Source: Alistipes sp.
GTDB lineage: Bacteria; Bacteroidota; Bacteroidia; Bacteroidales; Rikenellaceae
DNA: 37,567 bases
Direction: 5' to 3'
Assembly: GCA_017937805.1 (NCBI GenBank)
Contig: JAGBCX010000078.1
Location: 1 to 37,567, forward strand
The position numbers and the translations under genes are program-made. Shown piece by piece: positions 9,109-33,273 of the stretch. The notes beneath the pieces were generated by a model. That model made no database searches, was not told the DNA's origin, and saw only the letters and a program-made list of their open reading frames with translations. Position 1 is the stretch's first letter; every line of letters starts with the position of its first letter.

Positions 9109-9358
9109 CAATCGCAAGGTTGCAGACATTTTATTAGTGAAAGTGTTTCGCTAATCCTTTGTAGTGAAATTTGGCGATTTTATAAGCATAAGGATAAGCA
9201 ACAGCACTCAACACCGCATTTGGTATATCATTTTCTATATACCATTCGGTGTGAGGTATTGTTTATTTATGCTTGGGCCACGCCAAATGCCTACTACTTG
9301 ATAAACGAACTGCCTCACACTTTCTTTTTAATTAACCCACTATCGGGAGGCGGATAGT
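9109..9358 (+). ncRNA. Structured RNA copy A (6S-like or leader element)
   Basis: A rod-like fold spans 9139-9324: GAAAGTGT/ACACTTTC (9139-9146 with 9317-9324), GTAGT/ACTAC (9161-9165 with 9293-9297), ATTTGGCG/CGCCAAAT (9169-9176 with 9281-9288), AAGCATAA/TTATGCTT (9184-9191 with 9267-9274), ACACC/GGTGT with CTC/GAG, and an apical TGGTATAT/ATATACCA hairpin. A 6-bp hairpin ACTATC/GATAGT with the 8-nt loop GGGAGGCG follows at 9339-9358. A homologous copy with compensatory changes exists at 32992-33273 on the minus strand, so the structure is under selection. Length and central open region recall 6S RNA. The LRR lipoprotein start lies 46 nt past the last hairpin, so a 5' leader is the alternative. 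Confidence 0.75.
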
Positions 9359-9404
9359 AATTTGAATTTGAGAAACTTATTGTTAAACTAAAAAACAAAT
9401 TACT

Positions 9405-11252
9405 ATGAAACGATTTTTACTTTCGGTCGTTCTTGCAACGACTTTGGCACTTACATCGTGCCAATTTGATGACTCCGACATTTGGGGTAAACTTGATGAG
9501 TATGGCGAGTCTATTCGTGACCACGAACAGCGCATTTCTGCCCTCGAAGAGTTGTGCAAGCAGATGAACACTAACATTGAGGCGTTGCAGACTCTTGTTG
9601 ATGCTCTCGAAAAGCGTGACTATGTAACCAATGTTTCGGAGGTGCGTAGCAATGGCGAGGTTATCGGTTATACCATTTCATTTGCTTATAGCGACACCAT
9701 TACAATATACAATGGCAAAGACGGAGCAGACGGACAAGATGGCTACACTCCGAAGATTGGCGTAATGAAAGACACCGACAATATCTACTATTGGACTCTC
9801 GATGGCGAGTGGTTGCTCGATGGTAAGGGCAACAAGATACAGGCCAATGGTGTAAATGGCACTGACGGAACAAATGGAACTAATGGTGTAACTCCACAAC
9901 TCAAAATCGAGAACAACTATTGGTATGTGTCGTATGACAATGGCGCGACTTGGGAAAAACTCGGCAATGCTTCAAGCGGTAGCGGTAGTTCAAATTGCGT
10001 AATTACCAATGTCGAGGAGAGCGAAACAGAGGTAGTATTTACTTTGGCAGATGGCTCGATAATCACCTTACCAAAGGGCGAAAAAGAAGAGGTCGTTTCA
10101 GAGAATAATAAAATATACTACACCACTACTGACGGCAAAAAACTGTTCCCATATTCTACAGAGCCATCGGTCTTTGGTGCAATACTGATTTCTAATACCT
10201 ACGAAGATGGTCAAGGCGTATTAACCTTTGATGATGAAATCACAGTAATAGGAGAGATGGCTTTTGTTGAGTATTGCGACAGGTTAGCAACTATTAAAAT
10301 TCCAGACAGCGTTATTTCAATTGAAGAGAATGCATTTCAATCATGTAGCGAATTGGTCGCTTTTTATGGCAAATTTGCATCTACTGACAATTATTGTTTA
10401 ATAGTTGATGGGGTGCTAAATTCTTTTGCTCATGGTTGTGGTTTAAATGAATATACAATTCCCGATAGTGTTACTTCGATTGGAGAGCGCGCATTCAAAG
10501 GATGCACATCGTTAATATGTATTAGCATACCTAATAGTGTTACTTCGATTAGAGATAGAGCATTCTATAATTGTACTTCGCTGACAAGTATTATAATTCC
10601 TAATAGCATTACTTCAATTGGTGACTGTGCATTTCAGTCTTGTACAGGCGAATTAATAATACAAAGTAAGATTATTGAAAATCCGACAACCGATTCTGAA
10701 TTTGGTTGCCATAGGGGTTGGCTTTCTGGTGCCGAATTTACCAAACTTACTATCGGTAATAATATTACGAAGATTGGAGACCAAGTATTCATAGGTTGTC
10801 GTTCACTAGTAAATGTAACTATTCCTAATAGCATTACCGAGATTGGAAGGTCGGCATTTGAGTATTGCGAGTCGCTAACGAGCATAACAATTCCTGATAG
10901 TGTAACATCGATTGGAATAGACGCATTCTGTGGTTGCAAGTCGCTGACAAGTGTTACAATGCCTAATAGCGTTATAGAAATTGGAAGTTCGGCTTTTTAT
11001 CTTTGCAAGTCGCTAACGAGTATAACAATTCCTGATAGTGTAACTTCGATCGGAAGTTGGGCATTTCGTGATTGCACCTCGCTGAAAGAGGTTTATTGCA
11101 AGCCAATTACTCCGCCGACAGGAGGGGCTGATATGTTCTACCAAAGTGCTTCGGAATGTAAGATTTATGTACCAACGGCATCAGTTAATGCATACAAGAC
11201 TGCGGATGGTTGGAGCAATTATGCATATAGTATTGTTGGTTATGATTTTTAA
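9405..11252 (+). CDS. BspA-type leucine-rich-repeat surface lipoprotein with DUF4988-like N-terminus
   Basis: This 615-aa protein has a lipoprotein signal (TTLALTSC, Cys19 or 20). A heptad-rich coiled coil follows at about 25-65 (ISALEELCKQMNTNIEALQT), then a DUF4988-like region with collagen-like GKDGADGQDG and NGTDGTNGTNG turns and WTLDGEWLLDGKGN / YWYVSYDNGATWEKLG strands (to about 200). Residues 265-580 carry about ten LRR_5 repeats of the form IPxSVTSIGxxAFxxCxSL. It ends with the usual IYVPTASVNAYKTADGW module. Such proteins are exported and presumed to bind host or bacterial surfaces. Near-identical 69-nt DNA repeats in 10440-11090 could allow repeat-number change. The gene lies downstream of structured RNA copy A. 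Confidence 0.85.
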   Translation: MKRFLLSVVLATTLALTSCQFDDSDIWGKLDEYGESIRDHEQRISALEELCKQMNTNIEALQTLVDALEKRDYVTNVSEVRSNGEVIGYTISFAYSDTITIYNGKDGADGQDGYTPKIGVMKDTDNIYYWTLDGEWLLDGKGNKIQANGVNGTDGTNGTNGVTPQLKIENNYWYVSYDNGATWEKLGNASSGSGSSNCVITNVEESETEVVFTLADGSIITLPKGEKEEVVSENNKIYYTTTDGKKLFPYSTEPSVFGAILISNTYEDGQGVLTFDDEITVIGEMAFVEYCDRLATIKIPDSVISIEENAFQSCSELVAFYGKFASTDNYCLIVDGVLNSFAHGCGLNEYTIPDSVTSIGERAFKGCTSLICISIPNSVTSIRDRAFYNCTSLTSIIIPNSITSIGDCAFQSCTGELIIQSKIIENPTTDSEFGCHRGWLSGAEFTKLTIGNNITKIGDQVFIGCRSLVNVTIPNSITEIGRSAFEYCESLTSITIPDSVTSIGIDAFCGCKSLTSVTMPNSVIEIGSSAFYLCKSLTSITIPDSVTSIGSWAFRDCTSLKEVYCKPITPPTGGADMFYQSASECKIYVPTASVNAYKTADGWSNYAYSIVGYDF

Positions 11253-11328
11253 TAAAAAATAAAATTTGATAATCAAAGATATTAACCGGTCGGTGGTGTA
11301 ACAGCCATTGCCCATAAAAGAAGAAAAT

Positions 11329-32971: not shown

Positions 32972-32977
32972 TGTCTT

Positions 32978-32995
32978 CTACAATGTTGTAACCAT
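32978..32995 (-). CDS. Possible 5-codon leader ORF (MVTTL) before the radical SAM gene
   Basis: ATG GTT ACA ACA TTG TAG begins 4 nt after AGGAGG, which sits in the loop of the hairpin 32992-33011. It ends 6 nt before the radical SAM ATG at 32971. It has the only near-ideal Shine-Dalgarno spacing I saw in the window. The alternative is a chance ATG within the RNA 3' hairpin. Confidence 0.3.
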   Translation of the reverse strand: MVTTL

Positions 32996-33273
32996 ATCAC
33001 CTCCTATATGGGTATTAGTATATAAACAGAAAGTGTGGAGATGACTTTCGTTTATCTCTAAGAAGGTTGTGGAATGACCCGAACTAAAATAAACGACACA
33101 ATGCCCCACACTCGTATAGCATAGAACATTATAGCACGGAATATGCCATAGGTCTATTACATATACAAGAAATGAGTGCTGTTCGATTATCCTTTAGCTC
33201 TGAAAACTTCCACATTTTCTTAGAAGGACAGCGAAAACACTTTCTATATGTTCACCAAGTTATCTGCTACTTG
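32992..33273 (-). ncRNA. Structured RNA copy B (homologue of 9109-9358)
   Basis: On the minus strand, GAAAGTGT/ACACTTTC (33244-33237 with 33036-33029) closes a 216-nt rod. Helices CTAAGAA/TTCTTAG (33223-33217 with 33064-33058), TGTGGAA/TTCCACA (33214-33208 with 33074-33068), AGCTAAA/TTTAGTT (33199-33193 with 33088-33082) and CACTC/GAGTG follow. They differ in sequence from copy A but keep pairing. Conserved unpaired blocks include AGGATAA, AACAGCACTC, GTTTATTT and GATAAACGAA. The 3' hairpin CCATAT/ATATGG has the 8-nt loop AGGAGGTG. The apical arm is about 30 nt longer than in copy A. A 5' hairpin ACCAAGT/ACTTGGT lies next to the predicted start. Confidence 0.75.

Follow-up and report, generated by a model that had tools for sequence, protein, structure and literature searches.

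6S RNA is encoded by one or two free-standing genes per genome, c-di-GMP riboswitches form a many-copy regulon ahead of surface genes, and the EAR/epsC and JUMPstart elements are structured leaders that serve processive antitermination in operons for surface products. Here we describe a structured RNA that occurs twice, on opposite strands, in a 37,567-nt contig of Alistipes sp. (Bacteroidota, Bacteroidales, Rikenellaceae; GenBank assembly GCA_017937805.1, contig JAGBCX010000078.1; this whole stretch is called the window below). Comparison of its many copies suggests that it is probably a cis-acting leader RNA, found across the phylum, that switches between a read-through and a terminator-like state.

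The RNA has partial likenesses to several described systems. Multi-copy riboswitch regulons are like it in leader position, alternative helices, a terminator-like end, surface genes and tandem copies (two such loci here), and unlike it in that the present RNA has kissing hairpins, one strand with three partners and no known ligand. EAR/epsC and JUMPstart belong to other phyla, whereas the present RNA has no Rfam match, keeps a conserved spacing to the ATG and has no known protein partner. With 6S RNA and 6S-Flavo it shares a rod of about 200 nt in the minimum-energy drawing, a likeness pointed out by a sequence-only reading of the window; it differs from them in its adjacency to a promoter and, in most copies, a gene, its kissing loops, its alternative pairing and its 30 copies in one genome. 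The 6S likeness did not survive comparison: neither 6S RNA (RF00013) nor 6S-Flavo (RF01685) matched either copy at E <= 10, the copy number is wrong (30 and 37 copies in two genomes), and most copies lie between a promoter and a gene. A 6S-Flavo search of the Alistipes genome gave no match, and it shows nothing, since control genomes gave none either.

Other comparisons are with published RNAs, cited here by PMC number. Bacteroidales-1, Bacteroides-1, Flavo-1 and the other Weinberg 2010 motifs likewise came from comparative genomics of this phylum and are structured (PMC2864571); the covariance models of Bacteroidales-1, Bacteroides-1 and Flavo-1 gave no match, and across all of Rfam 15 the best score on the RNA was E 0.93. 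GOLLD, ROOL and OLE (PMC12286853) are also complex bacterial RNAs with long-range contacts, but they are large and non-coding, whereas the present RNA is a shorter, putative mRNA leader in many copies. A human-microbiome study by Fremin and Bhatt lists thousands of candidate structured RNAs, among them HMP2 candidates from gut Bacteroidetes such as the 108-bp HMP2_1881 near radical SAM genes (PMC8040213), and a study of Flavobacterium psychrophilum reports 64 structured 5' regions (PMC9723704). The RNA may partly overlap an unnamed candidate of either study. In the parts of the open literature that were covered (including PMC2864571, PMC8040213, PMC9723704, PMC7366714 and PMC9976891), we found no description of it.

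Against all 4227 families of Rfam 15, neither copy had a credible match and none reached its cut-off. Scanned to E = 10, copy 1 was matched best by rliE (E 0.93), whose 18.3 bits fall far short of the cut-off of 90, and copy 2 by a snoRNA model (E 4.2). At gathering thresholds the whole window yielded only the Bacteroidales small signal recognition particle RNA (13086-13193, +), a cobalamin riboswitch (4325-4529, -) and one tRNA. In 40 other loci scanned to E = 1 no Rfam match fell on the RNA; three tRNAs and a sub-threshold mir-310 match lay off it.

Two copies of the RNA in the window

Read base by base, copy 1 (+) and copy 2 (-) each contain a TAnnTTTG element, the shared strand GAAAGTGT and all the helices quoted in the sequence-only reading. 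GAAAGTGT is identical in both copies, with its first base at 9139 and 33244, and lies 36 and 35 nt from TAnnTTTG, the like distances that had been claimed; the two inner helices said to differ in sequence and still pair are both present. The spans then proposed (9109-9358 and 32992-33273) begin just past the promoters and finish at a small hairpin, ahead of start codons at 9405 and 32971; the gap from core to start codon is 79 nt in copy 1 and 56 nt in copy 2. Both cores fold more stably than every one of 200 dinucleotide-shuffled sequences (z -6.5 for copy 1, -6.0 for copy 2). The parts are listed below with scores from two covariance models, R1 (built from 8 copies) and the broader R2 (62 rows).

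9095..9102, +, copy 1 promoter element TAnnTTTG (TACATTTG), by sequence
9108..9123, +, copy 1 putative short 5' hairpin GCAA/TTGC, then AGACAT, by sequence; the flanks of other copies have a similar arrangement
9139..9325, +, copy 1 RNA core (R1 116.9 bits, R2 121.5 bits)
9139..9146, +, copy 1 strand a (GAAAGTGT), partner of strand d (P1) or strand b (P1*)
9154..9195, +, copy 1 hairpin 1, with PA ATCCTT/AAGGAT (9154-9159 with 9190-9195)
9166-9181, 9170-9176 and 9184-9191, +, inner parts of copy 1 hairpin 1: H4, P4 5' strand and P6 5' strand
9203..9208, +, copy 1 strand b (AGCACT)
9250..9256, +, copy 1 strand c (TGTGAGG), partner of strand d (PD) or strand b (P8)
9261..9306, +, copy 1 hairpin 2, with PB GTTTAT/ATAAAC (9261-9266 with 9301-9306)
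9267-9274, 9275-9292 and 9281-9287, +, inner parts of copy 1 hairpin 2: P6 3' strand, H5 and P4 3' strand
near 9291-9296, +, P3 3' strand in copy 1 hairpin 2
9313..9324, +, copy 1 strand d (CCTCACACTTTC), the hub strand
9321..9331, +, copy 1 U-rich, terminator-like tract at the end of strand d
9336..9359, +, copy 1 ATG-proximal hairpin, whose loop GAGGCGG (9347-9353) is complementary to CTGCCTC (9310-9316) (PC)
9405..11252, +, gene 3' of copy 1 (615 aa; DUF4988 and BspA-type leucine-rich repeats, lipoprotein-like N-terminus)
33280..33287, -, copy 2 promoter element TAnnTTTG (TACTTTTG)
33254..33275, -, copy 2 5' hairpin ACCAAGT/ACTTGGT, then GAACAT, by sequence
33028..33244, -, copy 2 RNA core (R1 204.5 bits, R2 189 bits)
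33237..33244, -, copy 2 strand a (GAAAGTGT)
33189..33229, -, copy 2 hairpin 1, with PA GTCCTT/AAGGAT (33224-33229 with 33189-33194)
33217-33225 and 33193-33200, -, P3 5' strand and P6 5' strand in copy 2 hairpin 1
33202-33219, -, H4 of copy 2 hairpin 1, including P4 5' strand (33208-33214)
33174..33180, -, copy 2 strand b (AGCACTC)
33104..33111, -, copy 2 strand c (GTGTGGGG)
33050..33094, -, copy 2 hairpin 2, with PB GTTTAT/ATAAAC (33089-33094 with 33050-33055)
33081-33088 and 33056-33064, -, P6 3' strand and P3 3' strand in copy 2 hairpin 2
33064-33080, -, H5 of copy 2 hairpin 2, including P4 3' strand (33068-33074)
33029..33040, -, copy 2 strand d (CTCCACACTTTC), the hub strand
33020..33032, -, copy 2 U-rich tract
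32990..33013, -, copy 2 ATG-proximal hairpin, whose loop GGAGGTG (32998-33004) is complementary to CATCTCC (33037-33043) (PC)
31427..32971, -, gene 3' of copy 2 (514-aa radical SAM / SPASM protein)

Beside copy 2 lie open reading frames (ORFs) that we named by eye: HNH-like (33946-34341, -), IS1595-like transposase (34350-35276, -) and acetyltransferase-like (35755-36306, +). Parts of RNA-guided nuclease systems, bridge RNAs, retrons or group II introns were set aside as identities for the RNA because the neighbouring genes vary from copy to copy; no search specific to them was made.

Distribution of the family

A degenerate pattern run over the whole genome hit 19 places, against 18 for the reversed pattern, and is alone no evidence; further copies were accepted for their wider similarity (about 200 nt) and then a model match. 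In the 1.84-Mb genome R1 gave 24 matches (one at E 4.4e-4, the rest at E <= 5.9e-17), and R2 gave 30 copies, every one at E <= 5.9e-11. Since the model finds copies elsewhere in the genome, chance is excluded. The result that would have refuted the sequence-only reading, a covariance-model search returning these two copies and no covariation elsewhere, did not come about. Within the window, a scan with the model at full sensitivity returned copies 1 and 2 only, the next best hit being a 41-nt partial match at E 0.025.

Beyond this genome, R1 matched 33 of 61 related genomes, including 29 of the 36 others of the genus (up to 38 candidates scored per genome), and 26 of 393 genomes and 18 of 207 genera at the level of the order. 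R2 matched 38 of 395 genomes sampled across the phylum, other classes included. One of the 38 is the Alistipes genome itself; 3 share its order, 24 its class and 10 its phylum only. Six candidates were scored per genome in the order and phylum surveys, so per-genome counts there are lower bounds; 12 chosen genomes with 60-150 candidates scored each held 1 to 37 copies, 87 in total. A scan for an exact pattern found 82 stretches, and the 80 listed were mostly from Alistipes and Rikenellaceae metagenome assemblies, many titled as herbivore hindgut. These matches, with the likeness to a Rikenellaceae record given below, are the ground for assigning the surveyed phylum to Bacteroidota.

Seven copies in the Alistipes genome (L043 and L182-L187) form a short group of 168-177 nt, of which R1 detects only L043 and R2 all. 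L185 and L187 share one unusual 5' flank and L043 and L184 another; ORFs of the short group start 65-99 nt away. At two loci cores stand in tandem. One (L033/L035, G000:C64:76211-76414 and 76562-76763, minus) has two complete promoter-leader units separated by about 150 nt, in which the first is followed by no more than a 37-aa ORF; the other (L168) has cores at 1132-1324 and 1501-1688, minus. The window is syntenic with the Rikenellaceae record SUZE01000019 (94% identity over 2972 nt) up to a break at window position 30398, beyond which SUZE01000019 has a divergent RNA copy (27.9 bits, R1) and the window different DNA. A third window copy, expected from that copy's place ahead of a gene common to the window, is absent, the homology ending at 30398.

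Fold and covariation

Cores are about 150-230 nt long in the copies seen. Over 54 distinct rows (a set that still held one reverse-strand match, L055 minus), 96.5% of cells in the helices of the rod are paired and 45 of 64 pairs have changes on both sides, a result reached by 0 of 500 shuffles; slid control structures are 37-53% paired. These compensatory changes bear out the suggestion, first drawn from two copies, that the fold is under selection. The rod with an open centre then proposed stands as one covarying pairing scheme, but it is not the only one, since a second covarying scheme exists. The blocks AGGATAA, AACAGCACTC, GTTTATTT and GATAAACGAA, previously read as unpaired, are instead strands of further covarying helices.

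For the structure and PC sets we left out L055 minus, L117 and L112 (cut at an end), L120 (incomplete) and duplicates, which gave 149 rows; 60 rows at <=85% identity were taken from these to count covariation in P4, H4, H5 and PB. The helices outside the nested model are PA (GTCC/GGAC), H4 (GAAAW/WTTTC), PB (GTTTAT/ATAAAC) and H5 (GGT/ACC). P4 pairs the loop of H4 with the loop of H5, and can therefore be a kissing loop; it occurs in variants such as CTGGAA/TTCCAG, GTGGAA/TTCCAC and TTGGCG/CGCCAA, and in the 60 non-redundant rows 97.9% of its cells are paired, with 102 double-change cells against a shuffled mean of 32. PA, H4, PB, H5 and PD together are 90.8% paired in alignment A8 (62 rows) and 87.6% in A7 (28 rows), with 0 of 500 shuffles on all five measures, although the shuffles ignore the relatedness of rows. 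Slid versions are 37-62% paired, a comparison that favours the proposed structures because they were set on rows L020 and L155; both alignments had been fitted to the rod and not to these helices. H4 is the weakest of the five (82% and 76% paired), and in the 60 rows H4, H5 and PB exceed shuffles by only a few per cent paired because they vary little. This comparative evidence gives good support to a fold of two hairpins in which the loops kiss (P4) and the flanks cross-pair (P3, P6). We infer further that PA-P3-PB-P6 and P3-H4-P6-H5 would form two four-way junctions joining the side-by-side hairpins, all at once.

Alternative pairing of the base strands

Strand d, (CAA)CTCCACACTTTC, acts as a hub with three covarying partners, two of them exclusive: strand a (P1), strand c (PD) and the loop of the ATG-proximal hairpin (PC). 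PD is found as GTGTGGGG/CTCCACAC, GTGTGAGG/CCTCACAC, GTGTGGAG/CTCCACAC, GCGTGGGG/CCCTACGC and others among the copies, and PC as GGAGTTG/CAACTCC, GGAGCCA/TGGCTCC, GAGGTTA/TAACCTC, GGGAACA/TGTTCCC and others. Two pairings are likewise open to strand b, one with a (P1*) and one with c (P8). P1, P8 and PC use separate bases and are mutually compatible, whereas PD overlaps each of the three.

We compared observed pairing scores with those obtained when partners were permuted between copies (200 permutations, given as mean/max). In 63 divergent rows, which include the seven short copies of the Alistipes genome and hold L175 twice (found by two models with different ends), the scores were 5.18 against 4.44/4.75 for P1, 4.13 against 3.61/3.94 for P1*, 5.71 against 4.76/5.13 for PD and 5.40 against 4.56/4.86 for P8; L177 was also left out of this count and of the U-tract, promoter and distant-ORF counts below. 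PC scores at least 5.5 of 7 in 107 of 148 copies, with a mean of 5.73 against 4.31 permuted (maximum 4.57 of 200).

Layout from promoter to start codon

TAnnTTTG is the core of the commonest promoter motifs of F. psychrophilum (PMC9723704). It lies upstream of 114 of 118 copies in the genus, ending 8-82 nt before the core (median 32 nt), and of 51 of 62 divergent copies (median 34 nt). Windows farther upstream contain it in 1/114 and 4/113 cases in the genus and in 5/62 and 6/62 among divergent copies, and scrambled motifs occur in the promoter window in 15 and 7 of 118 and in 3 and 1 of 62, respectively. Nearly all copies, 119 of 121 in the genus and 61 of 63 divergent ones, keep a U-rich tract (>= 7 T in 12 nt) at and after the end of the last stem; flanking windows contain one at rates of 13% and 11%, respectively. 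The small hairpin follows the U-tract and the ATG comes next, with the PC loop a median of 25 nt from the ATG (within 20-32 nt in 71 of 100).

Same-strand placement between promoter and gene, as of a cis-acting leader, is the rule in the genus and less frequent at phylum level. An ATG ORF starts within 150 nt of the core in 116 of 130 genus copies, 75 of these 44-60 nt away (median 56). Near ORFs follow 20 of 28 copies at order level (L175 again counted twice), nine of them in that band (median 59), and 15 of 29 at phylum level, eight of them in the band (median 50). The recurrence of promoter, RNA, U-tract, small hairpin and start codon in this order in many copies, together with the covariation and the Rfam result, supports the earlier suggestion of a leader or a new family. 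Between the RNA and a distant long ORF, L191 and L193 have a second hairpin with a common CGTCGCCAAACTA stretch, and L199 and L201-L203 have different hairpins.

Downstream genes

Lipoprotein and export signals are enriched among the downstream proteins, and the families are diverse. By simple rules made for this analysis, 49 of the 116 downstream proteins in the genus have a lipobox, compared with 48 of the 499 other ORFs at these loci; when a hydrophobic N-terminus is accepted as well, the counts are 78 of 116 and 169 of 499. The background ORFs are the longest ATG ORFs, whose starts may be wrong, which lowers their signal-peptide count. Fewer rows were left out of the ORF-spacing and lipobox counts than of the structure sets. 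Of the 133 downstream proteins of at least 60 aa, 101 (some cut by locus ends) were compared with Pfam; they matched 90 families, most with few members, with BspA-type LRR_5 in 16 proteins, DUF4988 in 8, BACON in 5 and OMP_b-brl in 4.

For the most part the RNA acts like a module that is uncoupled from the gene after it. In six genomes with 69 copies, the nearest RNA neighbour had a homologous downstream protein in 3 cases and homologous downstream proteins occurred in 17 of 580 within-genome copy pairs, although for 33 of the 69 copies the set did contain a homologue of the downstream protein.

Short ORFs (some 36-45 codons) with a pattern like YLTPEVEV...EQGF lie just 3' of the RNA in L022, L024, L047, L053, L088, L114 and others, in most of these loci with a lipoprotein-like ORF next. 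Look-alike small ORFs (68-95 aa) without a Pfam match lie 31-41 nt past the RNA in L195, L197 and L213.

A candidate mechanism and its alternatives

Comparative sequence analysis supports well the family, its position, the helices, the alternative complementarity, the U-tract and the spacing; we infer the formation of both states, termination at c:d, an action of PC on expression and the existence of an effector. Transcription would start at TAnnTTTG and yield the folded RNA, then the U-tract, the small hairpin and the gene. In one state the base strands would pair as a:d and b:c, giving the rod with P1 and P8; in the other as a:b and c:d, giving P1* and PD. The c:d stem would stand directly before the U-tract, resembling an intrinsic terminator, and turn the gene off. 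In the first state a would hold d, adjacent bases would be free to pair with the loop about 25 nt before the ATG, and PC would tie the fold to the start region, turning the gene on. An effector, a small molecule or a protein, may tip the balance between the states, which would place many unrelated genes, most of them for exported or surface proteins, under one signal. A stem with a U-tract and an alternative pairing for the stem, as in an attenuator, is present at the level of sequence. PC argues most strongly for selection on transcripts that extend beyond the U-tract, and hence for cis action. Bacteroidia ribosomes do not recognise Shine-Dalgarno sequences (PMC9976891), which makes the GGAG loop likelier to be a partner of the core than a ribosome site; we rejected a plain Shine-Dalgarno role for this GGAG, as it lies about 25 nt before the ATG, covaries with the core and would be a signal that goes unused.

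Several observations weigh against a switching leader. PC scores under 5 in 29 of 148 copies. In genus rows P1, P1* and PD beat permutation narrowly and P8 does not (4.88 against 4.92), a weak signal that arises because the strands scarcely vary there; permutation between copies also ignores relatedness, so that the margins are no probabilities. In five copies the nested fold constrained to PD lies 6-19 kcal/mol above the minimum-energy fold (pseudoknots and kissing loops uncounted in both), so PD would need co-transcriptional timing or an effector. Intrinsic terminators also rarely have as much as the roughly 60 nt that would lie inside a c:d stem. Of the near ORFs in the genus, 41 of 116 fall outside the 44-60 nt band, and 14 of 130 genus copies and 14 of 29 phylum-level copies have no ORF within 150 nt. 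In L191, L193, L199 and L201-L203 (six genomes of the same class) a clear ORF lies 227-309 nt off; these long ORFs look like a SusC-type receptor. No single pathway unites the downstream proteins, which do not point to a metabolite.

More narrowly, the effector might be a protein: an RNA-binding protein or NusG paralogue, and not a small molecule, would read the fold and let polymerase through, as in processive antitermination. In Bacteroides, capsule operons have leaders on which NusG paralogues act, a pseudoknot is part of the EAR RNA, and the broad, mostly non-homologous set of exported and surface genes resembles such global control. No candidate protein is tied to the RNA, however, and no co-occurrence test was made; we regard this version as rather unlikely, bearing in mind that it is the switching leader with its effector named and that the chances of the two overlap.

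A constitutive 5' untranslated scaffold, with one compact fold and no switching, could protect the mRNA or help recruit ribosomes that ignore Shine-Dalgarno sequences. The conserved distance to the ATG and the link of the ATG-proximal hairpin to the core through PC fit such a role, as does the failure of Bacteroidia ribosomes to recognise those sequences (PMC9976891), and PA, PB, H4, H5, P3, P6 and P4 can be drawn without conflict as two four-way junctions and a kissing loop. PD, however, overlaps bases of P1, P8 and PC, yet all of these covary in the divergent set, and the conserved U-tract straight after strand d would have no obvious use. We consider a scaffold without switching improbable.

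The uncoupling of RNA and gene (the 3 of 69 nearest neighbours above) would also be expected of a promoter-leader cassette that spreads as a dispersed repeat, selfishly or by gene conversion, and drives its neighbours by happenstance. The nearest neighbour of the 5' flank comes from the same genome in 38 of 69 copies (permutation mean 17.3, maximum 30), and the 3' spacer shows a smaller signal (31 of 69, maximum 30); the cores do not exceed permutation (24 of 69, mean 17.4, maximum 30). Against the cassette stand the 33 of 69 copies that do have a homologous downstream protein in the set and the compensatory changes across the phylum, which mean selection on structure. Plasmid, phage and viral collections gave no match either, in searches that reach near relatives only (copy 2 at blastn sensitivity and one exact 18-base pattern). 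Mere spread is a distinctly poor explanation, although cassette spread and leader function can coexist. Poorer still is the idea of a free small RNA of the 6S or sponge type, which would stop at the U-tract while the gene is transcribed by leakage only: the terminator-like end and the copies without a near ORF fit it, but PC joins the core to a loop 3' of the U-tract and covaries, so that transcripts holding both must matter, and the ATG spacing conserved in most copies, the 30 and 37 copies in two genomes and the lack of a 6S match speak against it.

Implications

We regard the RNA as probably a new class of structured regulatory leader with an unusual fold. In its fullest form the proposal is a phylum-wide, signal-responsive, riboswitch-like leader class with a double-crossover fold, in which exchange of the base strands would make or break a terminator and grip the start-codon hairpin, and one signal would reach tens of exported and surface proteins per genome; we put this forward tentatively, with less confidence than the switching leader itself. 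Folds of side-by-side hairpins with kissing loops are best known from designed RNA, and this RNA, if its arrangement is real, would be a natural case. The two natural copies in the window and the 30 in the genome are a ready set of constructs for finding the signal. If the reading as a switching leader is right, a shared layer of RNA control, unlisted in Rfam, would lie over exported and surface proteins in a major gut and environmental phylum, and the RNA makes it testable how Bacteroidota tune surface genes without Shine-Dalgarno sequences.

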